The notes beneath the pieces are model-generated. The model saw nothing but the letters and a program-made list of their open reading frames with translations. It made no database searches and was not told where the DNA came from. The translations under genes and the position numbers were made by a program. A DNA stretch of 64,000 nt, from positions 122,638-186,637 of the forward strand of contig WELB01000248.1 in assembly GCA_009602725.1 (NCBI GenBank), read 5' to 3'. Below, one piece after another: positions 1,842-61,272 of the stretch (its first letter is position 1; each line of letters starts with the position of its first letter). Source of the stretch: Spirogloea muscicola. Lineage: Eukaryota > Streptophyta > Zygnematophyceae > Spirogloeales > Spirogloeaceae.

Positions 1842-4198
1842 ATGGGGACATTCAGTCTGGCTTGCAAAGCTCGGCGGCTGCGCTTCCGTTACCTCGTGCT
1901 GCTTGCCGCTGTCGGACTTTTCAGCTGCAGCCATGTCGAGGCTGTCAAGGAGGAGCTCGAGTACGCCATTCTCAGCGACGAGACCGGGGAGATGTTCCAC
2001 AGCAAGGGGCTGCCAGTTGGCACGACGACCAACAGCGACGACTGCATCCTAGTGCATCACACAGGCTGCACTTCGAGGGCAAGGTGAGGGGACGAAGTGC
2101 CCACTGAAATTTAGTGTTTAAGGTTCATGCTCTGAGGTGGCCGTCTCTTCTATGTCGGTCCCTTCTACTCAGTGCATCCCAGAACACAGGCAAATCTGCG
2201 CAGATCAGCAGAGGTGGGCATCTCGTGCAAGCCTTCAGAAACGAGGTATCTGGGATTGACGATGTCCTTCTTGATGCGGCAGATGGCGCTGTGTGACATG
2301 TGAGGCAGGAGATCACGTGGCGGCTGATCGCTTCACCAGCTGCCATGTCAAATTTGAGCCCGTGGAAGGAGCATCCTTAGTTCGTTTGACATGTCAGGCT
2401 CTTAACCACATGACAGAGGGAGTCTCCAAGCTTGTGGATACTGGCTACTACCCCAAGCTCTTTCCAACAGCACTACGCAAGTGCACCTGGCCTCATGATC
2501 GCGTCCCTCCACTCCGGCCTCATCGCACAAAGCTCTGTAATGATACCCAGGACCGTTATGAAGGGCTTCAACGCGAGAGGCGACTGGCAGGCTCCACGTG
2601 CGCAAGTAACGGCTGCACAAACAAGCCGTGCAGCGGCGCTCCTGGCGGTACCGCAGGCAGTTGTGGCTGTGAAGGAGACTGCACCCCCTCGTGTAAGAGA
2701 GTCCTTCACCCATTTGTGTCATCATTCCATTGATTCGGAATAGTCAACATGCATTTGAAGTGTTGTGTTGGTTACAAAGCATGAGGCCAGCCATGGGATA
2801 CGGCTGCAGGGAACACAAGTACTGCCATCGTCAACACAGAAGTACTTATTCACGTCTACACTGGAAGTACAATAGTTGGAACCATTTACGTTGTCAATGT
2901 TTGCACATCAACTTCACAACCTGCAATGTGAATATGGGATGAAGACTATAGCTCCTGCTTGTTGTTGCCACTTTCTGGCAGGCGGGTGCTCATGCCAAGA
3001 CGTTGGGACCAACGGCAACACCAACTGCCAGTGTGTTTCAACAGCTTCGGGCAGTGGTAAGAAGGCCACAGGTGCATGTTCCTCGTAAGAGAGCAAGACA
3101 GTCTATATCACGTAAAACTCAAGGAAGCAAACACGAGTGTATGGCTGGACGCTGTCACACTTCCAAATCTTGCAGACGGGAACATAACAGGTAGATGGTA
3201 TACCCACATAGAGCTAAATACAACAAAGACTTGTATGACATCGCACATGGGCTATTATCTGCTTGCAGACTGCGCGCAACCGCCTCCACCTTCACCGCCA
3301 CCCCCGCCTTCACCACCGCCACCCCCGCCATCACCACCACCACCATTGCCTCAGTGCAGGGGAGGCAATTCATGTGTCTTACCGAGTGACTGTCAACATC
3401 CCTGCATTTGCGGAGATATTCAGTGTCCAGAAATTGGCCCATGTGTTGGCACTTGTGAGTAGCGTAAGTGCACAGAATTATGCATTATACGGTACAGCTG
3501 TGTGCCCTTTTAAGAAGATATGCCTCTAGTATTTCGTATTAGTATTCGTGTTGATATTTCGTATTAATCGTACAAGATTTTTAAAAGCGGTATGTGATTA
3601 TCAAGGGATGTGAGAGCTTAACACATTCTTAAGGAGACAGCCTCCTTGATGCACGAGATCATTATTGCTCTTTTCACAGCTCGTGTAAGCAAAGTTTATG
3701 AGGGCTACAGCGTTCACACTTTAGTGAGAAGCAATGAAGGAAGTCCTACGACTACATGAGGTTCAAGCATCCTAATGGTGGACTAAGGACTACAGCACCT
3801 TCAAGCGGCACTGTCGATCGCAAGAACATGTGTAGAGCGTGGCAAGCTCCTCTCACGATGCTAGCTGCACAGGACCTGACAGCCCTGCAGGTGTTAGCTC
3901 CAGTAACCTGCCTATTCGTCTCCTGTAGATCTGCTGTGCTCTGCCAGAAAGCAGCTTCTGTGGTCCTTCGTATCAGAACCTCATATAAGTACGCATTGTT
4001 GTGGCAGCTTGTAATCCGCCACCGGCGCCGCCACCTCCAGTTTGTGCGAACCATGGATGTGAATGTTCCGCACGGATGGGTGGCTACATCTGCACATGTA
4101 ACATAGACGGATGTAGTGGGTGCTCTGGCGGAGACTCTGGATCAAAAGATGAGAATCATGTGGGATGCAGAGGCGTTGATTGTGGTCATTGTTTGTGA
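1842..4198 (+). CDS. Secreted cysteine-rich protein, family copy 1 (with proline-rich cassette exon)
   Basis: Inferred exons are 1,842-2,083, 2,283-2,692, 2,982-3,056, 3,269-3,454 and 4,008-4,198, giving 367 aa; skipping the 186-nt fourth exon gives 305 aa in the same frame. The ATG is the start conserved in all copies. Residues 1-34 form a signal peptide (Arg-rich n-region, then a YLVLLAAVGLF core). The remainder of exon 1 has KEELEYAIL and DDCILVHHTGC. Exon 2 opens WRCVTC and contains LVDTGYYPK. Exon 4 encodes Ser-Pro runs, then a Cys-rich tail. The last exon has PPAPPPP followed by a small Cys-dense, EGF-like spacing. The protein is probably exported and disulfide-bonded. Its function is unknown and I do not recognise the family. 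The splice model rests on phase agreement with the other copies, not on transcripts. Confidence 0.65.
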
Positions 4199-4860
4199 AG
4201 TGGTCGACTTGCCACTGTATGGAACTTGTGGAGCTTGATATGTCAGAACAGTGAGACTAGAAGTACACAGATCTGAAGTTCTCAACTTGCCCTGCCTTAG
4301 TGGACGACATGCACTAGTAGATCGCAGAGCTTGATCATTCAAACGAATGGGTCTAGAAGATTGACGACTACGAACTTAGAAATTGCGGCTGCTTATACTT
4401 ACGGCGGCTGTAAAGATCAGCCTGTTCATCACAGAGAGACAGGGAGTGCAAGTTAGGGAGGCGGAGCCGTCAGGCTGGGCAACAGGGTCCTCTTAGTACT
4501 CCCGTTGGGGGGCTGCGTTGTCTGAGAGCCTACATCTTACGAATAGTATATGACAAGATTCTACATGCAAAAACCCGCCCTAAACCCTAACCCTAAACCC
4601 TAAACATTGAACCCTAAACCCTGAATCCTCAACCCTAAATCAATAATAGCTTCTGATATTTGTCTCTGAAATTTGCGCTACATGGTGTACTTTTACATTC
4701 GTGTGATTGCTTAAGCAGGCATGATGAGCAAGATTCACATGCAAGATGCTGCATCCACAGGCACACTATTCAGATGAGTGCAATTGTCAGGCGCCTAAGG
4801 GATTTGTAAGAAGCCCACAATGTCTAGCAGCAGACGCGCAAAGAAGTCCACACATGCAAG
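4199..4860 (+). other. Conserved DNA downstream of Cys-rich gene copies
   Basis: The same sequence follows copies 3, 4 and 5 (22,389-22,980; 27,545-28,135; 55,347-55,955), including GCGGAGCCGTCAGGCTGGGC near 4,460 and GATTGC(T/C)TAAGCAGGC near 4,705. It carries no conserved open frame. It is probably 3' untranslated or flanking DNA carried along in the duplications. Confidence 0.55.
4575..4643 (+). repeat. Interstitial telomere-type repeat (CCCTAAA)
   Basis: About 70 bp of CCCTAAA and degenerate versions. In copies 4 and 5 the corresponding site holds about 13 bp of ordinary sequence (TATGTAGAAGAAC in copy 4), after which all copies resume with TCA(A/G)TAA. The run was therefore inserted after the duplications. 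The heptamer is the plant and green-algal telomere unit. Confidence 0.85.
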
Positions 4861-6779: not shown

Positions 6780-9700
6780 AAGGGCTCGCCCATTGAGGAT
6801 AGGGGCTGAAAAAAGGTTAGTCCTTTGGGTTGGCCTCTCGCTAGGTCGCGGGCGTCGCCGCCGCCGCCGCCACCCCTCCAAAACCCCGGGCCGCCGCCGG
6901 CGTCGCCGCCGGCGGCACCCGCCGTAGGGTCCGCGGCGCGCCGGCCCCCTCCCGACCTGTTCCTCGCACCGCCGCAGCCCCAGCTCCCGCCGTCGCCATG
7001 CCGCCCGCCGCCGCCGCCCTCGCCTCCGCCGCCCCGCTCCCCGTCGCCCCAACCGCGCTTTCACGCGCCGCTGTCGGCGTCGGAGCCCGGAGTATCTCCA
7101 GGCGAAGCACCTTTNCATGCCAGCCCCACCGGCACGCCGCCCGCAGCGGCCGTCGCGGCTTGCAGCCCCATCGCCCCGGCCCTGGCATCTACTCAGGCGG
7201 CGCATACCACGGAGCATACCACGGAGGCCATTACTCTATCGCCTCCCGCCCGAGAGAAGAGTTGGGCACCTGCGTTATCGCCTCCACCGCTGAGATGCGA
7301 GGGGACCCACGAGGTGACCACGCTCCTCCATCCTCAGCGTACCATGCCCCATGTGCTCGGCCCTGACGTCCCTGAGTGTGCTTCTCCGGCGACAGAGGTG
7401 CCGCAGCCGCCACCGCCTGCCGAGCCATCGCCACCACTGCCGCCGTCGTCCCCCCCATCTCCCCCGACGCCGACTTCCCAACCATCCGCCATCCCGCCTC
7501 TCGAACCGCCCAGCCTTCCGCAGTCGGCGCCATCGACGCCGCCCCCGCCACCGCCGCCTCCAACCCCGCCGAGCGAGCCAGCTTCGCCGCCGTTGCCCCC
7601 GCCTCACTCGCCCGAACCACTGCTGTGCAAGCACTGCCAGAGGACCTTCACCTCGCGGTCCGGCCGGGCCAACCACGAGCGAGCCTGTACGTGCAGTAAC
7701 AACCGCGCGGCACAGGCGCGGAGCGCAGCGGCAGCGGGTGGTCGTCGGGGCAGACCAGGCAGGCCTCCCGCGTCGTCCCCGCCCACTCCTCAACACTGGC
7801 AGTGGCTGGCTGGCCTCGACCTGGCCCCAGTCCACCGCCAGGCGGCCCTGCCGCTCCTCCGCCACGTTCCGCGCTGGGTGCGCCCGCACCTCCGCCGCGC
7901 GCTCCGCCCGGTGACGCAGCGGCTCGTCGCGGACCACCGGGACGAGGCGGCGTGGAAGTTATTCCTCCTCTTCCCCCGGCTGCTGCTCGGGCGTGCCTCT
8001 CCCGACAGCCGCATGCAGGGCCAGCAGCCACTGCTGGAGCGCGTCCAGTTGTTCGAGAGCGGGCACTGGGAGGAGCTTCTGGCTCGTCATGACGCCGCCG
8101 TGGCAGCCTCTGCGGCCAACCGTGGGGGCACAGGGGCAGCGCCCGACAGGGCCGCCAGCGTCCGTCGGGCACTCCGCTTCGGCCACGCGGGTGAGCTTTC
8201 CAGGGCTGTGCAGGCCCTCGACGATGCGATGCTGGCGCCGACCAATGCGGCGACTCGGGCGGCCCTGGACTCCCTACACCCCCCGGCGAGCTCCCCCCTG
8301 CCACCGTGGTTGGCCGCCTTCGCTCCACCAGAGGAGGTGGTCTTGGATGCCAACGCCCTCAAGAAGGCTCTACAGACCAGCCGTCGCGCAGCCGCCGGCG
8401 GCCCCTCCCGCATGCTTACTGAGCACCTGTGGGAGATCTTCCTAGAGGGAGAGGCTGCGGACTTCAACGCGCTGCTGCAGATCTGCCAGCATCTGGCCCG
8501 GGACAATGTGCCGGCCAGCATCCGCGGCGTACTGTGCACCAGCACGCTGCTCGCCCTTGACAAGCCGAGCGGGGGAGTCAGGCCCATTGCCATTGGGGAG
8601 GTCCTCTACAGCCTGGTGAGCCGCGTTCTCTGGCAGCAGCATGCGGGGCCGGCGCAGGTGCACCTGGCGCCATATCAATACGGCGCGGGGCTGCGGAGTG
8701 GGGGCGAGGCCGTGGTCCACGGGGTTCGAGCAACCTTGGACCAACACCCAGGGTGGCTGGCACTGGCCGTCTACGTAAAAAATGCGTTCAACACCGTGGA
8801 GCGCGCCTGCATCGCGGAGGAGCTCCGGGCCGCCTTCCCCTCCCTGGTACCCTCTTTCCGCTTGGGGTACGGTCAGCCCAGCGACCTCCTCTGGAGGACA
8901 GGGGGTGACCAAGTGGAGGTCCTGCAGTCCCAAGCGGGCACGCGGCAAGGGGACCCCCTCGCCGGCTTCTTCGTTGCGCTCGCTCACCACCGGGCTCTGC
9001 AGGCTACCGGCGGCACATCCAGGGGTCCTCCTGTCCACCTTCGCCGACGACACCACCATGGTCGGCCCTCCGGAAGACGTGGCGGCGGCCTTCGTCACCT
9101 TCCAGCGGCAGCTGGCCACCCTCGGCCTGTCCACCCGGGCGTCGAAGTGTGCGGCTTGGTCCTCCTGCGGCCTCCCACCCACCCTGGCGCTGCCCCCCGG
9201 ATGCCTGACTCCCGCAAACGGCTTCACCCTCCTGGGGGTCCCCATCGGCGCGCCGTCCTTCGTGGAGGGGCAGCTGCGGGCCCGCCTCGAGGAGCACCTC
9301 CAGCCTGCGGCCCGGCTCCCCGAGCTGCAGGATATGCAGCTGGCTTTGGCCATGTTGACCATGGCCATTGCGGAGCGACCCCAGTATCTGACGCGGGCCA
9401 CCCCGCCGTCCCCAGGGGCGCTGGCGGCTTACGCGGGTTTTGATGCAGGCATGGTGACGAGCCTGGCGGCCCTGGTCCGCCACCAGGGCTTCCCCCAGTC
9501 GCCTGCCGCCCTTCACCAGGCCACGCTTCCCCTCAGGTACGGCGGTCTCGGCTTGCGGCCGCTCGTCCGTTCCTGCCGGGCAGCGTACCTCGGCAGCTGG
9601 GCGCAGACATCCGTCTCCGTGGCCCAGCGTTTCTTGGTCCACGGCCAGCGTGCGCTGGAGCAGGCGGTGGTGGAGGTAGCCACGGGTGTGCTGCCTTTCC

Positions 9701-10895
9701 AGGCGTCGCTACGCTCCGCCCACCAGGAGCTGCTCGCGGTGCACCCGGACCTGGCGGGCCAGGCGGTCTCCTTTGCGCACCTCGCGCAAACCGCCGACCA
9801 GCGCGTCCAAGCGCGCTTCGCAGCCGCAGTGGACAAGGCAGCCTGCACCACCGCCTTGCTTCAGCTCCCAGAGGCCGACCTGCGCGGGAGCGCGCGAATC
9901 CACTCGGCCTCCTCCCCGGGGGCCGCGGCGTGGCTCCAGGCCCTCCCCCTCAATGAAGCCCTCGCACTCCCGGACGAGGTGTTCTACAGTGCCGTCCACC
10001 GGCTCCTGGGCCTGCCGCCGCCATGTCTCCAGGGTGTGCAACAGTGTGAATGTGGCGAGCGAGGGGCCGAGCATGGGGAGCTGGCCGCGCATGTTCTGCG
10101 CTGTTCCCATGGCGGAGAGCGGACAGCGGCCCATGACCATCTCCGGGATGCGATGCATGGCATCCTTGTGGAGGCTGGCTTCTCGGTGGCAGCCGAGAAC
10201 TCTGCCGTCATGCCGCTCCAGCAACGGGCCGACGGTCTCCACGCTCGTCGAGTGGACCTTGTGGCCACCCAACCAGCAGGCGGGCCACGTCTTCTCCTGG
10301 ACGTGGTGACCACCGACTCCTATGACCGCTCACATCCAACCCAGTGTGCCACCAAGGCTGGGCATGCGGCAGCCTGCGCCGCTCGGGCCAAGGAGCTAAA
10401 ATACGCAGATCACCTGCAGGAAGACGAGTTCTTCCCGCTCGCCATCGATACGCACGGGGCGCTGGGCGCTCGGTGGCTCGAGCTGCTCAACCAGCTCTCT
10501 CGTCATGCCATTGCCCGCCGCTTCCATGGGGAGCCGGTGGACTCCCATGCAGCAGGGTCGCTAGCGCAGGTGTACCGCATGCGCTTGGCCGTCTCGCTGC
10601 AGAGGTCTATGGCCCGCGCGCTGCACCTGCGTGCAGGCAGAGCCCTCGCTGCAGCCTCTGGCTCTGGCCAGGGGACCCGCTTCCAGGAACCCAGTCTCTC
10701 TGACCTGAGGCTGCTAAGCCGGGGTTACTGAGTGCTTCGTAGCTGCTTCGTTTCTTTTCTGTGCTCGTTGTTCTTCGCACTTCCCCTGGCCCCTTCTCGT
10801 CCTTACTTTAGGTCTCTGTATTACGTAGCCTTGTTTAGTTTGCACTCGACTCTGCTTGAACTGTGTATTGGCTTGAATTGGCCTCCCTTTTCATT
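6780..10895 (+). mobile_element. Non-LTR retrotransposon with restriction-like endonuclease (R2-like layout)
   Basis: A C2H2-type finger, reverse transcriptase, CCHC knuckle and PD-(D/E)XK nuclease occur in the order known for restriction-like-endonuclease LINEs. The 3' end is taken at about 10,895 because TTAGGTCTCTGTATTACGTAG to TTGGCTTGAATTGGCC recurs at 11,985-12,075 after another LINE remnant. There is no poly(A). The 5' end is uncertain: the first 50 bp resemble the short dispersed repeats. Confidence 0.8.
6825..10731 (+). pseudogene. LINE polyprotein: zinc finger, reverse transcriptase, endonuclease (frameshifted)
   Basis: Frame one runs 6,825-9,443 and frame two carries on to 10,731; the switch lies near 9,000-9,025, between reverse-transcriptase motifs B (TRQGDPLAG) and C (FADD at 9,040-9,051). 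The first 250 residues are proline-rich and followed by a finger CKHCQRTF...H...C (about 7,625-7,690). In motif A the sequence is AVYVKNAFN: Tyr stands where the catalytic Asp (DVKNAFN) is expected, at residue 650. The C-terminal part has CECGERG..H..H..C (about 10,046-10,103), then RRVDLVA, LLLDVV and KELKY, fitting a restriction-like nuclease. One N at 7,114. Either a dead copy, or two base errors in the assembly; the domain calls are secure. Confidence 0.8.
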
Positions 10896-12552: not shown

Positions 12553-13992
12553 ATGGGGACATTCAGTCTGGCTTGCAAAGCTCGGCGGCTGCGCTTCCGT
12601 TACCTCGTGCTGCTTGCCGCTGTCGGACTTTTCAGCTGCAGCCATGTCGAGGCTGTCAAGGAGGAGCTCGAGTACGCCATTCTCAGCGACGAGACGGGGG
12701 AGATGTTCCACGCCAAGGGGCTGCCAGTTGGCACGACGACCAACAGCGACGACTGCATCCTAGTGCATCACACAGGCTGCACTTCGAGGGCAAGGTGAGT
12801 GGACGAAGTGCCCACTTAGGTTTAGTGTTTAAGGTTCATGCTCTGAGGTGGCCGTCTCTTCTATGTCGGTCCCTTCTACTCAGTGCATCCCAGAACACAG
12901 GCAAATCTGCGCAGATCAGCAGAGGTGGGCATCTCGTGCAAGCCTTCAGGAACGCGGTCCCTGGAATTGACTATCTCCTTCTTGATGCGGCAGATGGGGC
13001 TGTGTGACGTGTGAGGCAGGAGATATGTTACGGCTGATCGCTTCACCAGCTGCCATGTCAATTTCGAGCCCGTGGAAGGAGCATCCTTAGTCCATAGACT
13101 TGTCAGGCTCTTAACCACATGACAGAGGGCGTCTTCAAGCTTGTGGATACTGGCTACTACCCCAGGCTCTTTCCAACAGCGCTACGCAAGTGCACCTGGC
13201 CTCATAGGCGCGTCCCTTCACTCCGGCTTAGCACACAAAAGTCTGTAATGATACCCAAGAGCGTTATGAAGGGCTTCAACGTGAGAGGCGACTGGCAGGT
13301 GACGACTCCACGTGCTCAAATAATGGCTGCACAAACAAGCCGTGCAGCGGTGCTCCTGGCGGATCTGCAGGCAGTTGTGGCTGCGAAGGCGACTGCACCC
13401 CTTCCTGTAAGATACTCCTCGATTCATTTTTGTCAATTCCCAGATTAGTCATACATAGTCATACATGCATTTGAAGTGTTGTGTTGAGTCCAAAGCATGG
13501 GGTCAGCCCTGGATCGGCCTGCACGTCTCACGAGTACTGCAATCGTCCAAACAGGAGTACTTATTCACGTCTAAAATGAAGTTATTTTATTAGCACCATC
13601 TATATCGTCAATGCTTGCAAATCAACTTTCGCTACCTGCAGTGTGATTACGGGATGATGACCATGGCTCCTACTTGTTGCTGCTACTTTCTGGCAGGCGG
13701 GTGCAATTGTCAAGATATAGGGACCAATGGCATCACCGACTGCCAGTGTGTATCAACAGCTTCCAGCAACGGCATTAAGGCTATGAGCTCTTCATCGCGT
13801 TGTTGCAAGGAGAGGTGCTATTACTCTCAGGCGATAACGTGCGATGGTACTAGCGCACTTGCTTGTTGCTGGTCGGCTGATGGATTGAAGAAGGATTGCT
13901 CAAGGTGCACGGCTAAAGATGCTGGTAAACCTCTGGCAGATTGTATGTGCGATTGCAAGACCCTGTTTTACAGAAGTACTGGTGTCTGCTGA
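12553..13992 (+). pseudogene. Cys-rich family copy 2 (frameshifted, alternative C-terminal module)
   Basis: Inferred exons are 12,553-12,794, 12,994-13,406 and 13,697-13,992. Exon 1 is intact and almost identical to copy 1. Exon 2 carries three separate one-base deletions relative to copy 6: near 13,024 (GAT then ATGTTACGG), near 13,092 and near 13,228. The total is three bases, so the frame is restored at the exon end, but the first shift runs into TAG at about 13,088. Exon 3 is open and has the type-B tail (CCKERCYYSQ, ACCWSADG, STGVC). The signal peptide and tail are still readable, so decay is recent. Correct protein production is unlikely. Confidence 0.75.
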
Positions 13993-16199: not shown

Positions 16200-18441
<2,242 letters not shown>

Positions 18442-20763: not shown

Positions 20764-22388
20764 ATGGGGACATCCAGTCTGGCTTGCGAGGCTCGGCGGC
20801 TGCGCTTCCGTTACCTCGTGCTGCTTGCCAGCGTTGCACCTTTCTGCTGCAGCCATGTCGAGGCTGTCAAGGAGGAGCTCGAGTACGCCAGTCTCAGCGA
20901 CGAGACCGGGGAGAATTATTCACACCAAGGGGCTGCAAGTTGGCATGACGACCAACAGCGACGACTGCATCCTGGTGCATCACACAGGCTGCACTTCGAG
21001 GGCAAGGTGAGTGGACCAAGTGCCCCCTTTGCTACAGCTGTCATGCTTTGAGGTGGCCGTCTCTTCCTACTCAGTGCATCCAGAACACAGGCAAATCTGC
21101 GCAAATCAGCAGACGTGGGCGTATTGTGTAACCCTTCGGAAACGTGGTCCCTGGGATTGACGATGTCCTTGTTGATGCGGCAGATGGCGCTGTGTGATAT
21201 GTGAGGCAGGAGATCACGTGGCGGCTGATCGCTTCACGCGGGCTCGAATTCGAGCCCGTGGAAGGAGCGTCCTTAGTCCGTTAGACTTGTCAGGCTCTTA
21301 ACCACATGACAGAGGGAGTCTCCACGCTTGTGGGTAGTGGCTACAACCCCAAGCTCTATCCAACAGCGCTACGCAAGTGCACCTTGCCTCATGAGCGCGT
21401 CCCTCCACTCCGGGCTCATCGCACAAAACTCTGTAACAATACCCAGGAGCGTTATGAAGGGCTTCATGCCAGAGGCGACTGGCAGGTGGCGGCTCCACGT
21501 GTTCAACGGCTGCCATAACATGCCGTGCAGCGGCGATCCTGGCGGAACAGCAGGCATTTGTGGCTGCAAAGGAGGCTGCACCCCTTCGTGTAAGATACTT
21601 CTCCACCCATTTGTGTCAATACTATTCGGAACAATACACATGCATTTGAAGTGTTGTTGCTTCCTAAAGCATGGAGCCAGTCATGGATACGGCTGCACGG
21701 TACACAAGTACTGCAATCGTCCACACAGGAGTGCTCATTCACGTTCACAGTGGAAGTATAAGCCCTAGCACCATTTAGGTTGTCAATATTTGCACATCAA
21801 CCCGCGATGTGAATACGGGATGAAGACCATAACTCCTGCTTGCTGTTGCCACTTTCTGGCAGGTGGGTGCGCTTGCCAAGACGTGGGGACCAATGGCAAT
21901 ATCGACTGCCAGTGCGTATCAACAGCTTCCAGCAATGGCAATGAGGCCGCAGCCGCAGGTGAACGTTCATCGAAGCAAGACAGTCTAAGTCAATTGTACC
22001 TCCAGGATCATAAGTACTCCTGTGTATGGCTAGACGCGGTCACACTTGCAAAGCGTCTCACAATGCTAGCTGCACAGGAAGCGACGGTCGTGCAGGTGTT
22101 AGCTCCAGTATCCTGCCAATCTTGTCTGCATCCGGTAGATCTGCTGTGCTCTGCCATTGAGCAACTACTGTGGTCCTTGGTAGCAGATCTTCATGAGTTT
22201 GCATTGTTTTGGCAGCTTGTCCAGTCTGTGTGACTGGACATCATGGATGTGACTGAACCGCAGCAACGGGTGGCTACCTCTGCACATGTAACACAAACGG
22301 ATGTAGTGGGTGCTCTGGCGTAGACGGCGGAACAAATGAAGGGAGAAACGTGTGATGTCAGGGCCCTGATTGCGGTCACTGTTTGTGA
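20764..22388 (+). pseudogene. Cys-rich family copy 3 (multiply broken)
   Basis: Inferred exons are 20,764-21,006, 21,184-21,589 and 21,863 onward; the relic of the last type-A exon ends at 22,388. Exon 1 has one extra base (GAGAATTATTCAC for GAGATGTTCCAC), shifting the frame. Exon 2 replaces about 15 bp by a 20-bp perfect palindrome at 21,239-21,258 and is frameshifted. At the end of exon 3 the type-A splice donor (AATGGTAAGG) reads AATGGCAATG, so splicing to the last exon is lost. The relic of that exon also contains stops. The signal peptide and most Cys positions are still visible. Confidence 0.75.
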
Positions 22389-25888: not shown

Positions 25889-27544
25889 ATGGCGACATCC
25901 AGTCTGGCTTGCGAAGCTCGTCGGCTGCGCTTCCGCTACCTCGTGCTGCTTGCCGCTCTTGCACCTTTCTGCTGCAGCCATGTTGACGCTGCCAAGGAGG
26001 AGCTCGAGTACGCCATTCTCAGCGACGAGACAGGGGAGATGTTTCACACCAAGGGGCTGCCAGTTGGCATGACGACCAACAGCGACGACTGCATCCTGGT
26101 GCATCACACAGGCTGCACTGCGAGGGCAAGGTGAGTGGACGAACTGCCCCCTTTGCTACTGCTGTCATGCCTTGCGAGGGCAGTATCTTCTGTGCTGTTC
26201 CCTCTACTCAGTGCATCCCAGAATAAGTGGCAAGTCTGCGCAGATAAGCAAAATGGAACTCTCTTTTTAACCTTCAGAAACGTGGTCCGTGGAACTGACT
26301 GTTTCCTTCTTGATGCGGCAGATGGCGCTGTGTGACATGTGAGGCAGGAGATCACGTGGCGGCTGATCGTTTTACCAGCTGCCATGTCAAATTCGAGCCC
26401 GTGGAAGGAGCATCCTTAGTTCGTTTGACTTGTCAGCCTGTTAACCACATGACAGAGGGCGTCTCCAAGCTTGTGGATACTGGCTACTACCCCAAGCTCT
26501 TTCCAACAGCGCTACGCAAGTGCACCTGGCCTCATGAGCGCGTCCCTCCACTCCGGCCTCATCGCACAAAAGTCTGTAATGATACCCAGGACCGTTATGA
26601 AGGGCTTCAACGCGAGAGGCGACTGGCAGGCTCCACGTGCTCAAGTAACGGCTGCACAAACAAGCCGTGCAGCGGCGCTCCTGGCGGTACCGCAGGCAGT
26701 TGTGGCTGCCAAGGAGACTGCACCCCTTCGTGTGAGATACACCTCCACCCAATTGTGTCAACACCTGATTCGGAATAGTCAAACATACATTGAAGTGTTG
26801 TGTTGGTTCCAAAGCATGGGGCCAGCCATGGATACGGCCTGCACGTTACACAAGTACTGCAATGGTCCACACAGTAGAACTTATTCACGTCTTCGCTGAA
26901 GTACTCAAGTTTTCACCATATGAATTGGCGAGTCTTGCACGTCGACTTTGTTGCCTGCAGTGTGAGTACGGGACGATGACCATGGCTCCTGCTTGTTGTT
27001 GCCACTTTCTGGCAGGCGGGTGCGCATGCCAAGACGTAGGGACCAATGGCAACACCAATTGCCAGTGCGTATCAACAGCTTCCGGCAATGGTAAGGAGGA
27101 GGCCACAGGTGCATGTTCCTCGTAAGAGAGCAAGACACTCTATATCATGTAAAAAGCTCAAGGATACAACACGAGTGTATGGCTAGACGCATCGTCAGCT
27201 CCTCTCACGATGCTAGCTGCGCAGGACAGCCGTTCAGGTGTTAGCTCCAGTAACCTGCCTATTCGTATCCTGTAGAACTGCTGTGCTCTGCCCATAAAGC
27301 AACCGCTGTGGTCCTTTGTATCAGAACCTCAAAAGTTTGCATTGTTCTGGCAGCTTGTAAGACGCCACCGGCGCCGCCACCTCCAGTCTGTGCGAACCAT
27401 GGATGTGCATGTTCCGCAGTGATGGGTGGCTACCTCTGCACATGTCACACAGATGGATGTAGTGGGTGCTCTGGCGGAGACTTTGGAACAAACGAAGGGA
27501 ATCATGTGGGATGTAGCGGCGTTGATTGTGGTCATTGTTTGTGA
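25889..27544 (+). CDS. Secreted cysteine-rich protein, family copy 4 (intact type A)
   Basis: Exons 25,889-26,130, 26,322-26,731, 27,016-27,090 and 27,354-27,544 total 918 nt (305 aa plus stop) with no internal stop. Introns are GTGAGT...GCGGCAG, GTGAGA...TTTCTGGCAG and GTAAGG...TTCTGGCAG, phases 2, 1, 1. Residues 1-34 are a signal peptide (YLVLLAALAPF core, cleavage probably after HVDA). Residues 36-80 carry KEELEYAILSDETGEM and DDCILVHHTGC. Residues 81-217 form the conserved Cys domain, with pairs such as CVTC, TSCH, LTCQ, RKCTW, VCND and a C-rich end. The last exon adds PPAPPPP and about 11 cysteines in 63 residues. The best reference copy of the family. Likely extracellular or cell-wall; no enzymatic motif seen and no family recognised. 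Confidence 0.8.
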
Positions 27545-34878: not shown

Positions 34879-36187
34879 TGGTATCAGAGGATTGGTGGCG
34901 GGAATTGAACACTTTGAGGGCAAGGACTGGCGATTGTGGCGGATGACGGTCGAGATGACTCTCCGCGCGTACCGGCTCTGGAGCGTCGTGCTAGGGGAAG
35001 GACCAGCATCTGATGCGTCAGAGAAAGCTTCTCAGGAGTGGGAGGAGCAGAACGCAGTTGTTCTAGCTTTCTTGATGAACAGCCTGGACCAGCACCACCT
35101 TACTCAGATTGTGCCATCAGGCACTGCTGCAGAAGCCTGGGGAAAGCTGGTGGCCTACTGCGAACCAACAGGCCAGCAGAAGATGCTGGCGGTGCAGCAG
35201 AAGCTTCTGAACTTCCAGATGCAGGAGGGAGCAAAGCTGGCAGAGCACCTTACAGAGTTCAAGCGCCTTGTAGATGAGATGGAGGCAATTGGAGCAAGCA
35301 TGGAAGCAAGTCTGAAGAGCTTCCAGGTGGCGATCCTCCTCAACAGCTTGAAGCACATTCCCAGGTTCAACACTGTTATCACCCTCCTTGACAGTGTGGA
35401 GGACGAGAAGCGCAGCCTGGAGTTCGTGCGGGGAAGATTGTTGCAGGAGGAGAAGAGAGCCCAAGAGAGAGGAGACGAGACTGAGGCCAAGGCATCAGCA
35501 ATGCTGGGTCAAGTGGATATAGGTATGGGTCACAGGACTGGCTTTCAGGGTCAGAACGGAGGACAGGGAGATATTCGTGCCAGCAGAGGTGCCTGCCACT
35601 TCTGCAGGAAGCAGGGTCATTGGAAGGCTCAGTGTCCAGCTCTACGAGCGAAGCTGCAAAGGGACAGGTCACACGTTGCCCAAGGGGAGCACGCCAGCAC
35701 TTCCTACTCTGCAGCCACAGGTGAAACATGTTCCGAAACTCGTGAATACCACTCGTGGTTGGTGGATTCAGGAGCAAGTGCACACATGACTTGCAGAAGG
35801 GAGTGGCTGTAGGAGTATAAGGAGGTCAAGAACTGCCGTGTTTTGTTTGGGAACAATACTGCCGCAGTTGCTGTGGGGAAGGGCTCGGTGGACATAGTTG
35901 CTCAAGTTGCCGGCAAGACCTTCAAGACCACTTTGCAGGATGTCCTCCATGTTCCTTATCTGGCTAGAAATCTCTTGTCTGAGAACATCCTCAACAGCCA
36001 GAAGCTTCGACTTGTGTTCAATCCACAGGGCTGCACGATCCTCAATAGAGACGGAGAGGTGGCTGCCGTGGGGGAAAGGAGTGGTGGACTCTGCTGGCTT
36101 GTGGGTGAGGCTTTGACCCTGGGAAGACAATGCAACGTGGCAGTAGCAAACAAGAATGACAACCTGCAGTTATGGCATCGCAGGCTG
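34856..36187 (+). pseudogene. Copia gag-protease (in-frame stop, then frameshift)
   Basis: Gag begins at ATG 34,856, inside the 5' LTR, and translates through the primer-binding site (HGIRG), as Ty1 gag also starts in its LTR. A UBN2-type gag is followed by the zinc knuckle CHFCRKQGHWKAQC near 35,595 and the protease motif LVDSGASAHMT near 35,762. TAG at 35,810-35,812 interrupts (REWL then stop), and the frame is open again to LLSENIL. Near 36,185 a 2-base loss inside LWHRRLGH disrupts the integrase zinc-binding site. The element is probably not autonomous now. Confidence 0.8.
34879..34890 (+). other. Copia primer-binding site (initiator tRNA-Met type)
   Basis: TGGTATCAGAGG directly abuts the LTR end CTGTACA. 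TGGTATCAGAGC is the usual sequence complementary to the 3' end of initiator tRNA-Met in plant copia elements. Confidence 0.85.
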
Positions 36188-38816
36188 GGACAATGGAGAA
36201 GCTCTCAAGGAGATGATTAAACAACAGCTCGTGAGTGGCTTGACATCTGGAGTTGATAGTCAGCTCAATTTTTGTGAAGGGTGTGTGCTGGGAAAACAGC
36301 ATCGAGGTCCTTTTCCTGCAGGGGGAGGCAAGAGGGCAACCAATCTTTTGGAGTTGGTGCACACAGATGTGTGGGGTCCAGCGCCAGTTGCATCACTGGG
36401 AGGTGGGAAGTACTTTGTAACCTCTATTGACGACTTGTCACGAAAATGTTGGTGCTATATTCTCAAGGAGAGGTCGAGTGTCTTTCAAATCCTCCAGAGA
36501 TGGCGTGCTGCAGCAGAAAAACAAGTGGGCAGACCTTTGAAGGTGCTTCGCTCTGATAATGGTGGAGAGTATGTGTCTAAGGAGTTCGAGAACTTCCTGG
36601 CCCGGGAAGGCATCCAACATCAGCGGACGGTACCGTACACGCCCCAGCAAAATGGCGTCGCTGAGCGAATGAACAGGACCTTGCTGGAGGCTGCAAGGTG
36701 TATGCTCCAGGAGAGTAGACGACCTGACAGCTATTGGGGCGAAGCTGTGTGTACGGCGGCATATCTGCGGGCCAGATGCCCAACAAGGGCAGTGCAGGGG
36801 GCAACGCCAGAAGAACTGTGGGCGGGGAGGAAGCCAGATATCTCACACCTGAGAGACTTCGGGTGCAACGCATATGTGCACAGGCCCACAGAATTGCGCA
36901 ACAAACTGGATCCCAAGAGCACAAAGGCTATCTTTGTGGGATACGATGCAGACACGAAGGGATACAGACTGTTGGATCCTGCGAGCAAGCGCATTGTGCT
37001 CAGCAGAGATGTCATCTTTGATGAAAGTTGGCGTAGAAGTGAGAATGTTGCAGCAGAGGAGAGAATCACGTTGCAGTGGGAGCAAATGCCTGCTATGCTT
37101 GACTCTGAAGAGCCTGTCTTGTGTGGAGATGAAGATGAAGACTCAGAGGATGTTGATGGGCAAGAGCAGCCACTGATGCCGTCGCAGGACTTCGAGGAGG
37201 AGGTGGAGGAGGCGCAGCAACAGCAGGCTGGAGAGGAAGAACAGCGAGAAGAAGAGCAGCCGCAACTGCAGCCACAGCAGCAGCTTAGAAGGAGCACAAG
37301 AACGCAACAGCTTAGGGAGGATCCTGCATACTTCTTTGGTTTTGCAGCTACCGTAGACGAACCCCTGACCATGGCGCAGGCAAGGCAGAGGGTGGATGCT
37401 GCGCAGTGGAAGTTAGCCGCGGCTGAAGAGATGCGTTCCATGGAAGAAAACAAGACATGGACACTTGTTGACTTGCCACAGGGGTGGAAGGCAATTGGCT
37501 GCAAATGGGTGTTCCGACGGAAGAGAGGTGCAGATGGGGAAGTTGTCAGATACAAGGCAAGACTGGTGGCAAAGGGATTTTCACAGGTCGAAGGAATTGA
37601 CTACGATGAAACATTTGCACCAGTTGTGAAATATACCTCCATCAGGGTGTTGCTGAGTCTAGCTGCAGCCAGGGACTTCGAAGTTCACCAAATGGATGTG
37701 AAAACAGCGTTCCTCAATCGAGATCTGGAGGAAGAAATTTTCATGATGCAGCCTGAGGGTTTCGCTGACTCAGAGCAGCCAAGCAGAGTCTATCTCCTGA
37801 AGAAGTCTCTGTACGGGCTAAAGCAAGCGCCCAGAATGTGGAACTACAAGATCGATGACGTGTTGAAGAAGGCAGGATTTGTGCAATGCACCAGCGACAC
37901 CAGCGTCTATGTGCTGCGGGTGTCAGCACAACCAGTGGTGCTGTTGGCTCTGTATGTGGATGATCTGCTCATACTCAGCCCTAGTCTGGAGAATGTCGAC
38001 AGGGTGAAGGGTTTGCTGTGCAGCAAATTCAAGATGTCCAATCTTGGGGAGGTGTCCTACCTGCTGGGTATGCAGGTGCTTAGGGATAGAAGGCGAAGGA
38101 GCATCAAGTTGGGACAGGTCAAATTTGCTGAGCAGGTGCTGCAACGCTTTGGGATGGAGACATGCAAGCCAGTTTCAACTCCAATGGAGTTCAAGCAGGC
38201 TTTATCAAAGGCGCAAGAACCACAAACAGTGAAGGAAGAGGAGGAGATGGCAGGGGTTCCATACCAGCAAGCAGTGGGGAGTCTTATGTATCTCATGACA
38301 GGAACCAGGCCAGATCTTGCAGCAGCAGTGGGAGCAGTGAGCCAGTTCATGCAGCGGCCTGGGGTGGCTCATTGGCAAGCAGTGAAACGGATCTTCAGGT
38401 ACTTGGCTGGGACAACCAATACATGGCTCGCGTTCGGCGAAGAGAGTGATCTGCTGCAACACTCTCCAGCGACCAAAAGAACGTGGGCCCTGAACTCCCT
38501 CCCAAAGGATAGGGGCCCTCCCAGGTCGTCTCGTTCCGTGCCACCTGCTCTGACTGCCTCATCTGCTTCTGCATCTGCTTCGAATGAAAACTGGGCCCCG
38601 ACTCTCTCACAGGATAGGGGCCCTCCCAGGTCGTCTCGTTCTATGCCATCTGCTCTGGCTGCTCCATCTGCTTCTTCATCTGCTTCGAATGGAAACTGGG
38701 CCCCGACTCTATCACAGGATAGGGGCCCTCCCAGGTCGTCTCGTCTCGACTTGCTCGCTCTGAATGCATCTGTAAATAATGAGGGGCCTGCAGAAGGAAG
38801 TGTCGAGCTGCTTTGA
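36188..38816 (+). pseudogene. Copia integrase and reverse transcriptase, interrupted before RNase H
   Basis: The open frame continues from the frameshift. Integrase keeps CEGCVLGKQHR, the catalytic Asp residues (HTDVWGP; RSDNGGEY) and Glu (NGVAERMNRTL). A Glu/Gln-rich linker precedes the reverse transcriptase (GCKWVFRRKRG, QMDVKTAFLN, LYVDDLL at about 37,950). After LAGTTNTWLAFGEESDLL, where RNase H should follow, a 366-bp insert (38,457-38,822) carrying 105-bp tandem repeats adds a Ser/Pro/Arg-rich tail and a TGA stop at 38,816. Catalytic residues of both enzymes are intact. Confidence 0.85.
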
Positions 38817-41489: not shown

Positions 41490-42773
41490 ATTTTGAGAAA
41501 TGCAATCCCAGGTCGAGGACCTGCTGGCGAAGGGCTACATTGAGCCATCTCAGTCGCCATATGGAGCACCCATCCTCTTTGTCGAAAAGAAGGATGGCAC
41601 TCTACGGATGTGCATTGACTATCGGGCTTTAAATAAACTTACTATCACGAACCGATACCCATTGCCTCGGATAGATGATCTGTTCGATTGGCTTGCAGGG
41701 GCTACGGTTTTCAGCTCCCTGGACCTGGCAAGTGGGTATCACCAAATTCGAATCACGCCTGCGGATGTTCCGAAGTCGGCGTTCCGTATGCCGCTTGGAC
41801 ATTTTCAATTCTGAGCTTTGGTTTGACCAATGCACCGGCTACGTTCCAGGCGGTGATGTCGAGGGTCTTTGGCCCCCTGCTCTACCATTTTATGCTGGTT
41901 TACTTGGATGACTTACTGGTGTTCAGCAAAACGCCTGAGGATCACGTGAAGCACCTGCGCCAAGTGCTGCAGTTGCTGCGTGAATGTCACTTGTATGCCA
42001 AGCGGTCCAAGTGTGCATTTAACCAGCCAGAGCTGACATACCTCGGGCATGTCGTGGGCAAAGACGGCATACGTGTCGACCCCAAGAAGACTTCGGTCGT
42101 ACGGGATTGGCCTGTGCCACAAACTGTGCCTCAATTGCGCTCCTTTTTGGAATTTGCAAATTATTTCCGAAAGTTCCTACAAGGCTATGAGAAGTTGGCA
42201 CTTCCTCTTACGAAGCTGACTCGTAAGGACGTACCTTGGAATTGGTCGTCCGAATGCCAGAGGGCACTTGAGGGGATACAGCAGGCGTTGACATCTCCGC
42301 CTGTGCTGGCTTTTCCTCGTGGAGGCGTGCCATATGAATTCGTCTGCGATGCCTCTTTGACCGGCATTGGTGCCGTGCTCTTGCAAGAGGGTCACCCGTT
42401 AGCGTTTGAGAGTCGCCTGCTGATCCCTACAGAGCGAAATTACACTACGGGCGAGCAGGAATTGCTGGCTGTGGTGCACGCCTTACGTGTCTGCCGTTGC
42501 TACCTGGAAGGTGTGGCATTTACGGTTGTCACGGATCATTGCCCGTTGACATATTTCCACACGCAGCAGCATTTGACTAGGCGTCAAGCTCGATGGGCTG
42601 AGTGCATGGCACCATTGGATTTCCAGTGGGTTTATCGCGCAGGACGTCTTGATGTTGCAGACCCTGTGAGTCGCAACTTTCGTGGCGCTGATGCGGTGGC
42701 TTCCTTGAATGCTTCTGGAGTGCGGGCTGCAGGACTGCGTCCGACTCGTCAAGCTTCTCAGCACCACGGCTGA
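41490..42773 (+). pseudogene. Gypsy reverse transcriptase and RNase H (frameshifted)
   Basis: 41,500-41,814 reads [20 protein letters not shown] and [13 protein letters not shown] (motif A); a one-base loss near 41,812 moves the rest to the frame with FGLTNAPATFQ, YLDD at about 41,901 and ELTYLGHVV. RNase H follows (FVCDASLTGIGAVL, VVTDHCPLTYF). The frame ends at 42,773, just past another shift near 42,745. Confidence 0.85.
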
Positions 42774-44033
42774 GCTCTCTGAGCTCTACGTGCGTATCCG
42801 TAAAGGGTATGGCACAGACCCGTGGTTTGCTGAAGCCGCCAACGTAAGCACCCTCACTGATGACAAAGGCTTCTGGTGGCAAGGTGACGCTATTGTGGTC
42901 CCGAACTGCAATGCCTTGCGCACAGACATAATGCAGGAGCTGCATGATACGCCTTACAGTGGTCATTTGGGAGTGAGCAAAACCAAACAGGCTGTGCGAC
43001 GCCTCTTTTGGTGGAAGGGCTTTTCAGCCCAGGTGCGCGCTTTTGTGGCAAGCTGTGCCACATGCCAGCGTAGTAAGGCAATCTCTGGCAAGCCTGCCGG
43101 ATTACTTCAGCCCTTGCAGATTCCGGAGCGGAATTGGTCTGATGTAAATGTGGATTTTATCACACAATTGCCTAAGACGCGGAACGGCTATAATGCCATT
43201 GTCGTCTTTGTGGATCGCCTGAGTAAAATGGTGCATTTTGCTCCCACTACTACGCGAGCATCGGCGAAGGATTTCGCTGGCATCTTTGTGGCTAAGGTGT
43301 GGAAGCTACATGGAATACCTGAGAGGCTGGTCTCGGACCCCGATCCTCGCTTTACAGGTCACTTCTGCAAAGAAGTCTGCAAGCTCAGTAGCAGGAAGCA
43401 GTCCATGTCCACAGCCTTTCATCCACAAACGGATGGCCACACTGAGCGAATGAATCGAGTTCTTGAGGACATGTTGAGGCACTTTGTCAATTCTAGCCAG
43501 ACTGACTGGGATAACTATTTGGCTCCAGCTGAATATGCTGTGAAAAATGCCTATCATGCGTCCATCTTCCTCAAATATGGTCAGCATCCCCGAGCTCCAC
43601 TTCAGGTGGGGAGGCCGGAACGAGTTCCCGCCGCGGTAGCCTTTACTGGGACCCTCTTGGAGGCTCAGAGACGAGCTCGGCATTTCTTGGAAATTGCCCA
43701 GAGTCGCCAGAAGGCTAATGCTGACAAACATCGGAAGGACGTGTCCTTCGATGTTGGTGCTCAAGTGCTGCTGAGCACGAAGCACTTATCCTTGCTGGCT
43801 GTGGGTACGCGCAAGTTGCTGCCCAAGTGGGTTGGACCATTTGCAGTAGTACGCCTTGTGGGCAAGGTGTCCTACGAGTTGAAGACACCGGTGCATTGGA
43901 AGGTCCATAACGTCTTCCATGTGTCCCAGCTGAGGGCCTTCCTTTCGGATGGTCGTGTCCAACCGCCCCCACCTCCACTAGTCATCGAGGATGATCTTGA
44001 GTTTGAGGTGGAAGAGATCTTGTCTCGCAGGGA
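42745..44033 (+). pseudogene. Gypsy integrase, truncated at the chromodomain
   Basis: Zinc-binding HHCC (ELHDTPYSGHLG; CATCQRSK), then the catalytic set DVNVDFITQLP, VSDPDPRF and HPQTDGHTERMNRVLED. The C-terminal part ends with HVSQLR and DDLEFEVEEILSRR, the beginning of a chromodomain. The true element sequence stops at the inversion breakpoint (44,034); residues after RRDPR in this frame come from reversed copia LTR. Confidence 0.85.
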
Positions 44034-44080
44034 CCCTAGATCATACGAGCTAGCAAGAGTCTCATAGATTTCTTACAACA
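44034..44080 (-). repeat. Displaced first 47 bp of the copia 5' LTR
   Basis: On the minus strand reads TGTTGTAAGAAATC... to ATCTAGGG, the exact start of the LTR at 39,311. It abuts the gypsy gag at 44,081, marking the original copia insertion point. Confidence 0.9.
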
Positions 44081-53684: not shown

Positions 53685-55346
53685 ATGGCGACATCAAGTC
53701 TGGCTTGCGAAGCTCGTCGGCTGCGCTTCCGCTACCTCGTGCTGCTTGCCGCTCTTGCACCTTTCTGCTGCAGCCATGTCGACGCTGCCAAGGAGGAGCT
53801 TGAGTACGCCATTCTCAGCGACGACACCGGGGAGATGTTTCACGCCAAGGGGCTGCCGGCTGGCATGACGACCAACAGCGACGACTGCATTCTGGTGCAT
53901 CACACAGGCTGCACTGCGAGGGCAAGGCGAGTGGACGAACTGCCCCCTTTGCTACTGCTGTCATGCCTTGCGGGGGCAGTATCTTCTGGGCCATTCCCTC
54001 TACTCAGTGCATCCCAGAATAAGTGGCAAGTCTGCACAGATTAGCAGAAATGGAACTCTCGTGTAAGCCCTCAGAACCGTGGTCCGTGGAACTGACTGTT
54101 TCCTTCTTGATGCGGCAGATGGCGCTGTGTGACATGTGAGGCAGGAGATCACGTGGCGGCTGATCGCTTCACCAGCTGCCATGTCAAATTCGAGCCCGTG
54201 GAAGGAGCATCCTTAGTTCGTTTGACTTGTCAGGCTGTTAATCACATGACAGAGGGCGTCTCCACGCTTGTGGATACTGGCTACTACCCCAAGCTCTTTC
54301 CAACAGCGCTACGCAAGTGCACCTGGCCTCATGATCGCGTCCCTCCACTCCGGCCTCATCGCACAAAGCTCTGTAATGATACCCAGGACCGTTATGAAGG
54401 GCTTCAACGCGAGAGGCGACTGGCAGGCTCCACGTGCTCAAGTAACGGCTGCACAAACAAGCCGTGCAGCGGCGCTCCTGGCGGTACCGCAGGCAGTTGT
54501 GGCTGCCAAGGAGACTGCACCCCCTCGTGTAAGATACATTTTCACCCATTTGTGTTATTACCAGATTCGAAATAGTCATACATGCATTTTATGTGTTGTG
54601 TTGGTTCCAAAGCATGAGACCAGCCATGGATACGGCTGCAGAGAACACGAGTACTGCAATCGTCCACACAGGAGTACTTATTCACGTCTACACTGGAAGT
54701 ACAATAATTAGCACCATTTACGTTGTCAATATTTACACATCAACTTCATAACCTGCGATGTGAATACGGGATGAAGACTATAACTCCTGCTTGTTGCCTC
54801 GTTCTGGCAGGCGGGTGCGCATGCCAAGACGTAGGGACCAATGGCCACACCAATTGCCAGTGCGTATCAACAGCTTCCGGGAATGGTAAGGAGGCCACAG
54901 GTGCATGTTCCTCGTAAGAGAGCAAGACAAGTCTATATCATGTAAAGCTCAAGGAAACAACACGAGTGTATGGCTGGACGCTGTCACACTTGCAAGCTCC
55001 TCTCACGATGCTAGCTGCACAGGACCTGACAGCCGTGCAGGTGTTAGCTCCAGTAACCTGCCTATTTGTATCCTGTAGATCTGCTGTGCTCTGCCATAAA
55101 GCAACTGCTGTGGTCCTTCGTATCAGAACCTCATAAGTTCGCATTGTTCTGGCAGCTTGTAAAACGCCACCAGCGCCGCCACCTCCAGTCTGTGCGAACC
55201 ATGGATGTGCCTGTTCCGCAGTGACGGGTGGCTACCTCTGCACATGTAACACAGACGGATGTAGTGGGTGCTCTGGCGGAGACTTTGGAACAAATGAAGG
55301 AGATCATGTGGGATGTAGAGGCGTTGATTGTGGTCATTGTTTGTGA
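53685..55346 (+). CDS. Secreted cysteine-rich protein, family copy 5 (intact type A, GC-AG first intron)
   Basis: Exons 53,685-53,926, 54,119-54,528, 54,811-54,885 and 55,156-55,346 total 918 nt (305 aa plus stop), identical in every exon length to copy 4. The first intron begins GCGAGT after AAG; GC-AG introns with a strong AAG-GCGAGT context are usually functional. Relative to copy 4, the substitutions I saw (for example SDDTGEM for SDETGEM, GLPAGMTT for GLPVGMTT) keep the frame. The signal peptide, CVTC domain and terminal GHCL are conserved. It sits in front of block D3 as copy 1 sits in front of D1, so gene and block duplicated together. Confidence 0.78.
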
Positions 55347-59345: not shown

Positions 59346-59378
<33 letters not shown>

Positions 59379-59461: not shown

Positions 59462-59836
59462 TTGATTGGTGGCCGTGTGTAACAACCAGCCAGGTGCATA
59501 CGGAGGGTGTTCGTGACCACGTAGCGGAGAAATGCGCGGGCGTAGCGAATCCTCCCTGGCCCCTTCCCTGGCCCCTTTACTCATTTCTCTGGGCTGGCCT
59601 CTCCCAGCCACCGCCGTCTCCTGGAAGCGTCTTTCTTTTCCCTGTGCCCATTATTCGCTCCAGCAGCCGAATTCTTCCCCCTCACCGGGCCCCCTCGCTC
59701 TCTCCCTCCGCCCTTCCGCGGCTCGCCCCTCCCGCTCCCTTCTCCGCTTCTCAGAGAGCCCCGCGGCGCTCGGCCCTCGGCTCAGACGCGCCTGGCTCTT
59801 GCCTCCACATCTGCTTGCCCGTCTGGCTACCTGCAG
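59462..59836 (+). promoter_or_regulatory. Upstream module of Cys-rich gene copy 6
   Basis: TTGATTGGTGGCCGTGTG, CCAGCCAGGTGCATACGGAG, GTAGCGGAGAAATGCGCGGG and the CTCGGCCCTCGGCTCAGACG leader appear in the same order and spacing as 1,475-1,841 and 12,186-12,552. Confidence 0.5.
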
Positions 59837-61272
59837 ATGGCGACATCCAGTCAGGCTTGCGAGGCTCGGCGGCTGCGCTTCCGTTACCTCGTGCTGCTTG
59901 CCGCTGTCGGACTTTTCAGCTGCAGCCATGTCGAGGCTGTCAAGGAGGAGCTCGAGTACGCCATTGTCAGCGACGAGACCGGAGAGATGTTCCACGCCAA
60001 GGGGCTGCCAGTTGGCATGACAACCAACAGCGACGACTGCATCCTGGTGCATCACACAGGCTGCACTTCAAGGGCAAGGTGAGTGGACGAAGTGCCCCCT
60101 TAGGTTTAGGGTTGAAAAATTCATGCTCTGAGGTGGCCGTCTCTTCTATGTCGTTCCCTTCTACTCAGTGCATCCCAGAACACAGGAGCAGATCAGCAGA
60201 GGTGGGCATCTCGTGTAAGCCTTCAGCAACGTGGTCCCTGGAGTTGACTATCTCCTTCTTGATGCGGCAGATGGCGCTGTGTGACCTGTGAGGCAGGAGA
60301 TCACGTGGCGGCTGATCGCTTCACCAGCTGCCATGTCAAATTCGAGCCCGTGGAAGGAGCATCCTTAGTTCGTTTGACATGTCAGGCTCTTAACCACATG
60401 ACAGACGGAGTCTCCAAGCTTGTGGATACTGGCTACTATCCCAAGCTCTTTCCAACAGCGCTACGCAAGTGCACCTGGCCTCATGAGCGCGTCCCTCCAC
60501 TCCGGGCTCATCGCACAAAGCTCTGTAACGATACCCAGGAGCGTTATGAAGGGCTTCAACGCGAGAGGCGACTGGCAGGTGACGACTCCACATGCTCAAA
60601 TAACGGCTGCACAAACAAGCCGTGCAGCGGTGCTCCTGGCGGAACCGCAGGCAGCTGTGGCTGCGAAGGCGACTGCACCCCTTCGTGTAAGATACTCCTC
60701 CACTCATTTTTGTCAATACCCAGGTTCAAAATAGTCATACATGCATTTGAAGTGTTGTGTTGAGTCCAAAGCATGGGGCCAGCCCAGGATCGGGCTGCAC
60801 GTCACACGAGTACTAATGTTCCATACAGGAGTACTTATTCACGTCTTCAATGAAGTACTATCATTAGCACCATCTATATTGTAAATGCTTGCAAATCAAC
60901 TTTCGTTACCTACAATGTGATTACGGGATGATGACCATAGCTCCTGCTTATTGCTGCTACTTTCTGGCAGGCGGGTGCACTTGCCAAGATATAGGGACCA
61001 ATGGCAACACCGACTGCCAGTGCGTATCAACAGCTTCCAGCAATGGCATTGAGGCTATGAGCTACAATTTGCTTGCGGGTTGTTGCAAGGAGAAATGCTA
61101 TTACTCTAAGACGGTAACGTGCAATGGATCTACCGCACTTGCTTGTTGCTGGATGGTTGAAGGAGTAAAAAAGGATTGCTCAAGGTGCACTGCCAGAGAT
61201 GCTGGTAACCCTCCGGCAGGTTTTATCTGCGGTTGCAACAACTTGCTTTACAAAAATACTGGTGTCTGTTGA
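59837..61272 (+). CDS. Secreted cysteine-rich protein, family copy 6 (intact type B)
   Basis: Exons 59,837-60,078, 60,271-60,686 and 60,971-61,272 total 960 nt (319 aa plus stop). Exon 2 is two codons longer than in type A (LAGDDSTC for LAGSTC). At the point where type A exon 3 splices out (AATGGTAAGG), this copy reads AATGGCATTG and stays open, giving a different tail: CCKEKCYYSK, LACCWMVEG, CSRCTARDAG, CGCNNLLY and terminal NTGVC. The tail has about a dozen cysteines, keeping the disulfide-rich character without the proline-rich linker of type A. Same signal peptide class (YLVLLAAVGLF). The only intact type B copy here. Confidence 0.8.

Follow-up and report, generated by a model that had tools for sequence, protein, structure and literature searches.

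The window analysed here, the last 64,000 nucleotides of a 186,637-bp contig of the zygnematophyte alga Spirogloea muscicola (G000:C248:122638-186637; other contigs are numbered in the same way), carries eight copies of a multigene family that, judged from its sequence, is real and under selection; seen in one genome, it encodes Cys-rich proteins of modular build that look secreted. Its members join a head, defined as mature exon 1 plus exon 2 (about 150 residues), to one of several kinds of tail. Purifying selection on the head is strong, marking it as a constrained protein domain; the tails show less constraint. We consider, with a probability of about one half, that these genes encode secreted, disulfide-rich, N-glycosylated proteins of the extracellular matrix (cell wall or mucilage) of the alga.

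Extent of the Family and Constraint on the Head

A preliminary description of this DNA counted six plus-strand and two minus-strand copies and proposed to look for exon 2 in the rest of the genome. The count stands, with eight exon-2 loci in the window, and a search of the 153.1-Mb assembly (471 contigs) with exon 2 of copy 4 gave 63 matches at E ≤0.001. Manual merging of the genome searches brought the exon-2 loci to about 49, on 12 contigs in all, a count that includes several fragments and, like others of its kind, is a lower bound. The loci are distributed over C248 (14), C215 (11), C338 (10), C450 (4), C339 (2) and C288 (2), with one each on C395, C297, C55, C102, C145 and C3. Detailed inspection covered 39 of the 49. 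Exons 1 and 2 are open in 23 of these, at least over the aligned part (C338:87205 has a frameshift near the exon-2 end), and intron 1 interrupts the identical codon in all 23, with GT-AG borders in 22 and GC-AG borders in one. The remaining 16 have diverged, are broken, or stop at the edge of a contig, as at least two of them do. The local amplification and decay proposed earlier are both supported.

Fifteen of the 23 open loci make up subfamily A, whose exon 2 starts with WRC, and eight belong to the diverged subfamily B, starting with WKC, WQC or WWC; the WWC copy groups with A on the head tree, via a long, unsure branch. The position and phase of intron 1 are the same in A and B despite near-saturated synonymous divergence. 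Every one of the 23 aligned open copies has the 10 invariant Cys columns and carries NDT or NET, as an N-x-T sequon, at one site; 62 alignment columns are invariant.

The median pairwise ratio of nonsynonymous to synonymous divergence (dN/dS) is 0.29 within A (105 pairs), 0.20 within B (28 pairs) and 0.12 between A and B, the last figure coming from the 80 of 120 pairs that were usable, at a median dS of 2.28, the other 40 being saturated. No computable pairwise ratio exceeds 1. Along the A copies, over those pairs that gave a finite estimate (the number of excluded pairs being uncounted), the ratio is 0.65 for the signal, 0.15 for the mature part of exon 1, 0.09 for the first part of exon 2 and 0.39 for its end. 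The tails gave 0.33 for the core of exon 3 (19 copies), 0.77 for exon 4 (10 copies) and 0.75 for the long exon 3b (six copies), and these sets mix relaxed and functional genes because copies with broken heads are included. For exon 4, the +1 frame is open in three of 10 copies and the +2 frame in none of them; for exon 3b, both frames are closed in all six copies. The segment ratios and the open-frame counts therefore define the head as constrained and the tails as looser; the looseness reflects either relaxation or diversification, which the counts do not separate. The claim that the family is rapidly evolving thus suits the tails alone (0.33-0.77); the signal (0.65) and the exon-2 end (0.39) are also looser, and the head evolves slowly (0.09-0.15).

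These dN/dS tests are stronger evidence for the family than the wealth of Cys-rich open reading frames (ORFs) in the window, where eight ORFs, counted irrespective of family membership, have ≥130 aa, ≥12 Cys and ≥8% Cys, against 0-2 per shuffle in 30 Markov-1 shuffles.

In both products tested, those of copies 4 and 6, the Kyte-Doolittle maximum lies at residues 13-35 and the C-terminus is not hydrophobic, a hydropathy plot of the kind expected for a secreted protein with an N-terminal signal and no C-terminal anchor. The predicted structure of exon 2 is beta-rich and poor (pLDDT 57.5), and with a query model of this quality the comparison with solved folds (Foldseek, VIA) gave no convincing match.

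Gene Structure in the Window

The exons of copies 1, 4, 5 and 6 can be joined in frame. Lengths of 242, 410, 75 and 191 nt had been noted as identical in copies 4 and 5; they are, and they recur in copy 1 when its distal last exon is used. Copy 6 has exons of 242, 416 and 302 nt, two introns and a product of 319 aa; its exon-3 donor is lost and its last exon is the long exon 3b. Splicing of copy 5 requires a GC donor in intron 1, which is GC-AG. Intron phases 2-1-1, once taken as common to all copies, are found in copies 1, 4 and 5, while copy 6 has phases 2 and 1 and each minus copy displays a single intron: intron 1 in the copy at 17330-18107, and intron 2 in the copy with exon 2 at 63260-63673, whose exon 1 lies past the contig end. 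The third intron is seen in plus copies only, because the minus copies are broken or cut by the contig end. Stops and indels disrupt exon 2 of copy 2, which is a pseudogene. The family features of the window are as follows:

1842..4198, plus: copy 1; exons 1842-2083, 2283-2692 and 2982-3056
3269-3462, plus: candidate last exon 4b of copy 1; PPPPSPPPPP linker, phase-1 entry, frame closing at 3462
4008-4198, plus: candidate last exon (exon 4) of copy 1; phase-1 entry
12553..13992, plus: copy 2; exon 1 open (12553-12794), long exon 3b open, to 13992
17330..18107, minus: broken subfamily B copy; frameshift in exon 1, exon 2 truncated; head-to-head with copy 3
20764..22385, plus: copy 3, a pseudogene; exon 1 frameshifted, exon 2 with both a frameshift and a stop, exon 4 with stops
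25889..27544, plus: copy 4, intact; exons 25889-26130, 26322-26731, 27016-27090 and 27354-27544; 305 aa, 33 Cys
53685..55346, plus: copy 5, intact; exons 53685-53926, 54119-54528, 54811-54885 and 55156-55346; 305 aa
59837..61272, plus: copy 6, intact; exons 59837-60078, 60271-60686 and 60971-61272; 319 aa, 32 Cys
62800..63673, minus: subfamily B copy; open exon 2 at 63260-63673, tail exon at about 62800-63029 as placed from search offsets

An ORF before exon 3 (CEYG..CCCHF) was considered as coding sequence and rejected, as it lies upstream of the acceptor ggcag/gc and is unused in the spliced product; the rejection depends on the splice model.

Exchangeable Tails and Exchange between Copies

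Seven kinds of tail were distinguished, four of which have short proline runs followed by a Cys-rich module:

exon 3 plus exon 4 (ACKTPPAPPPPVC...GHCL)
the long exon 3b, without a proline run
the PPPPSPPPPP exon in copy 1
a CGSPPPPQPPPPPPP-like tail, on C215 and C248
a CSSPSPPPP tail, on C102
two kinds in the B group, without proline runs

A phase-1 AG acceptor stands directly before the tail frame in 10 of 10 hand-picked tails and in copies 1, 4, 5 and 6, and exon 3 is symmetric (1-1). Because the introns are in phase 1 and every examined tail exon is entered in that phase, tails can be swapped with the frame preserved. Where the exon-3 donor is kept (gtaag or gtaaa), exon 4 comes next; with ggcatt or a similar sequence at that site, an open exon 3b is usual. 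The exceptions are C215:235908, C338:87205 and C395, which carry exon 4 with an altered donor, and C338:96507, which has a split 3b.

Genome searches with exon 3b and exon 4 gave 26 and 16 matches, respectively, mostly at family loci; immediately upstream of the tail matches at C450:11779, C297:127186 and C3:899658 there is no match to exon 2. Stray copies of exon 1 or of tail exons occur at C15:132166-132372, C469:2981-3172, C450:11779-12057, C297:127186-127341 and C3:899658-899813. The exon-2 genome searches gave no match directly beside any of these five isolated exon copies, and it is suggested that they are stray modules or broken genes.

Copy 1 seems to have arisen by recombination between two paralogues, with a copy-6-like 5′ part and a copy-5-like 3′ part. 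Its upstream region is 90.6% identical to that of copy 6, versus 77.9% and 66.6% for copies 4 and 5; the corresponding values are 94.6% versus 92.1% and 90.1% in exon 1, and 89.5% versus 74.2% and 74.3% in intron 1. The second half of exon 2 is closest to copy 5 (98.5%), followed by copy 4 (96.5%) and copy 6 (93.6%), as is intron 2 (89.0%, 81.6% and 80.5%, respectively). Copy-6-like bases occupy 77 of 94 informative sites before position 2418 and 27 of 67 after it. Taking copies 4 and 6 for the parents places the best breakpoint near 2418, and none of 2000 permutations was as extreme, in a test that used the 161 of 237 informative sites from position 1700 on and treats sites as independent. 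The pseudogene copy 2 is closer still to copy 1, with 98.7% identity upstream and 98.8% in exon 1.

On the head tree, with tail labels assigned by hand, tail types M1 and M2 need four and five changes, respectively, and a single origin was recovered in 0% of 200 bootstrap trees. Clustering of M1 exceeds the chance level (8 of 500 shuffles were as low); that of M2 does not (500 of 500). The module swapping put forward in the preliminary description is supported in so far as there are signs of exchange.

Six B loci, two each on C450, C338 and C248, constitute a close group, and in four cases a head-to-head A neighbour lies no more than about 4 kb away:

C450:14024 (B) and C450:17179 (A)
C450:20315 (B) and C450:23935 (A)
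C248:139964 (B) and C248:143871 (A), window positions 18107 and 20764
C338:92305 (B) and C338:87205 (A)

One of the other two is cut by a contig end, and for C338:46015 the 10 kb on the 5′ side contain no exon 2 of subfamily A. The pairs on C450 recur at a spacing of 6.3-6.8 kb.

Relation to Known Families

The family is undescribed in the sense that it is absent from Pfam, NCBIfam, PDB, IMG/VR and GTDB contigs, none of which is a eukaryotic protein collection, and the earlier statement that it matches no recognised family holds within these libraries. Pfam returned no family for the 218-aa head (E up to 1) or the 305-aa product (E up to 10), in HMMER searches whose filters discard many weak matches. 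One proline tail drew four weak Pfam matches, the best at E 0.028 and none of them DUF3707; these were rejected as a matter of composition. Copy 4 had no match in NCBIfam, and neither the exon-2 profile nor the copy-4 head had any among PDB sequences. The exon-2 profile picked out nine pattern stretches in GTDB contigs and 19 in IMG/VR, none of which was confirmed. Literature searches for this family and for similar ones, covering few subscription journals, yielded nothing describing it.

Pherophorins, the extracellular-matrix glycoproteins of volvocine algae, consist of a globular part, a proline-rich spacer and a second globular part (PMC9818292) and form large families. The present family, also large, resembles them as a secreted-looking algal multigene family whose layout may likewise be globular-spacer-globular. 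Unlike pherophorins, it has no match to the Pherophorin domain (PF12499, DUF3707) in the head or the scanned tails, and its spacer is far shorter or missing, with short proline runs in four of the seven tail kinds. By analogy, the proteins may work like pherophorin-type matrix glycoproteins, although the missing domain sets them outside that family. A genome search for DUF3707 came back empty, as did its control, so it is uninformative alone. Volvox VCRP and the PR-IP of Closterium, another zygnematophyte, are secreted algal proteins linked to signalling; the likeness to them is one of description. The motif of DUF26 is C-x8-C-x2-C, which the C-x7-C-x2-C stretch of the head (alignment columns 78, 86 and 89) resembles. 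DUF26 (Gnk2-like) proteins are a secreted, Cys-rich, tandem-expanded plant family (PMC6368629), and the family described here is similarly secreted-looking, Cys-rich and tandem-expanded; however, with a Cys spacing one residue off and no Pfam match it falls outside DUF26.

Possible Functions

As a component of the extracellular matrix, the protein would be exported and glycosylated, the head would do one common job, anchoring in the matrix or assembling it, and the tail would determine the binding target of each variant. New combinations of head and tail would arise through tandem duplication, often as head-to-head pairs, and gene conversion. Zygnematophytes are the sister group of land plants, and a sizeable secreted family in one of them, named by none of the libraries searched, would in this way provide candidates for the proteins of their mucilage or wall, as well as an example of conserved-head, exchangeable-tail protein evolution via phase-1 exons. 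The composition of the green algal cell-wall proteome is called an open question in a review (PMC10762512).

Several points weigh against an extracellular-matrix role. The location in wall or mucilage is deduced for a family known here from DNA alone. Exon 2 has no structural match, and its model is poor (pLDDT 57.5). The proline runs are short, and they are absent from 3b and from both B tails. Relaxation and diversification of the tails are inseparable, with broken copies in the dN/dS sets and no ratio >1, and the head tree, judged by its starred branches, does not demand multiple origins for any tail type.

A bolder proposal, which we consider less likely than not, is that of a new extracellular fold limited to zygnematophytes, in which a fixed head with exchangeable phase-1 tails would give rise to combinatorial matrix or recognition proteins. 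Copy 1 possibly has two alternative last exons in one gene, which would be part of the same combinatorial arrangement.

Diverse tails on a fixed head would also suit secreted recognition proteins of conjugation (acting as pheromones or in recognising the mating partner), the head docking to a common receptor and the variable tail giving specificity; secreted protein pheromones act in the conjugation of Closterium (PMC5736609). Nevertheless, about 49 loci are many for a mating signal, no dN/dS exceeds 1 and PR-IP is comparable by description only, so that we regard such a role as unlikely. It also seems improbable that the family is a defence repertoire, as was once suggested, of secreted proteins that bind or act against microbes, with tails diversifying in this conflict. 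The genes are Cys-rich, secreted-looking and clustered, with a birth-and-death pattern and faster tails, as such a repertoire might be; the head, however, is strongly constrained with no dN/dS >1, no antimicrobial family was matched in Pfam or among PDB sequences, and no evidence for a defence role was found. It is very unlikely that we are dealing with a mostly decaying family with few working genes, amplified passively with neighbouring transposable elements, for although 16 of 39 inspected loci are not open in exons 1 and 2 (at least two owing to a contig end) and Copia, gypsy-type and non-long-terminal-repeat (non-LTR) remains lie between the window copies, purifying selection appears in all computable comparisons, including A-B near synonymous saturation, and the splice sites and the sequon are conserved.

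Genomic Surroundings

Several other elements are interspersed with the family copies in the window:

4578-4639: interstitial CCCTAAA array of about nine units (76% matches), between copies 1 and 2
6810-10731, 36147-38813 and 41497-44067: non-LTR-like, Copia (RVT_2, rve) and gypsy-type (RVT_1) retroelement frames
29855-30424: glycosyltransferase-61-like frame (PF04577, E 3e-8), inside the gene cluster
32242-32390, minus: match to protozoan signal recognition particle (SRP) RNA (RF01856, 65.8 bits; gathering threshold 65)

CCCTAAA is the plant-type telomere repeat, and glycosyltransferase-61 enzymes act on plant wall polysaccharides. The 271 bp around the RF01856 match have 17 matches in the genome, itself included, at 91-100% identity and many of them partial. 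This dispersed repeat is perhaps an SRP-RNA-derived short interspersed nuclear element or part of a larger element.

Elsewhere in the genome there are 68 matches to chlorophyll a/b protein exons, and GRAS factors are also encoded. One LHCII exon, compared with PDB sequences, scores 343.8 and 343.5 bits against 8htu and 7xqp, both from moss, and 321.4 bits against 6kac_Y from Chlamydomonas; first rank goes to the long multi-domain chain 9vfj_2, through its summed score. A search for rbcL found nothing, the organelle being probably absent from the assembly. LHCII and GRAS matches recur in contig trios (C37, C98 and C130; C53, C91 and C160; C27, C28 and C180). Among LHCII loci from three contigs, two pairs were compared, and their similarity is about 83% across 2.3 kb with non-coding DNA included. 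A whole-genome triplication has been reported for S. muscicola, and the sequence pattern of the LHCII and GRAS trios likewise suggests a triplicated genome.

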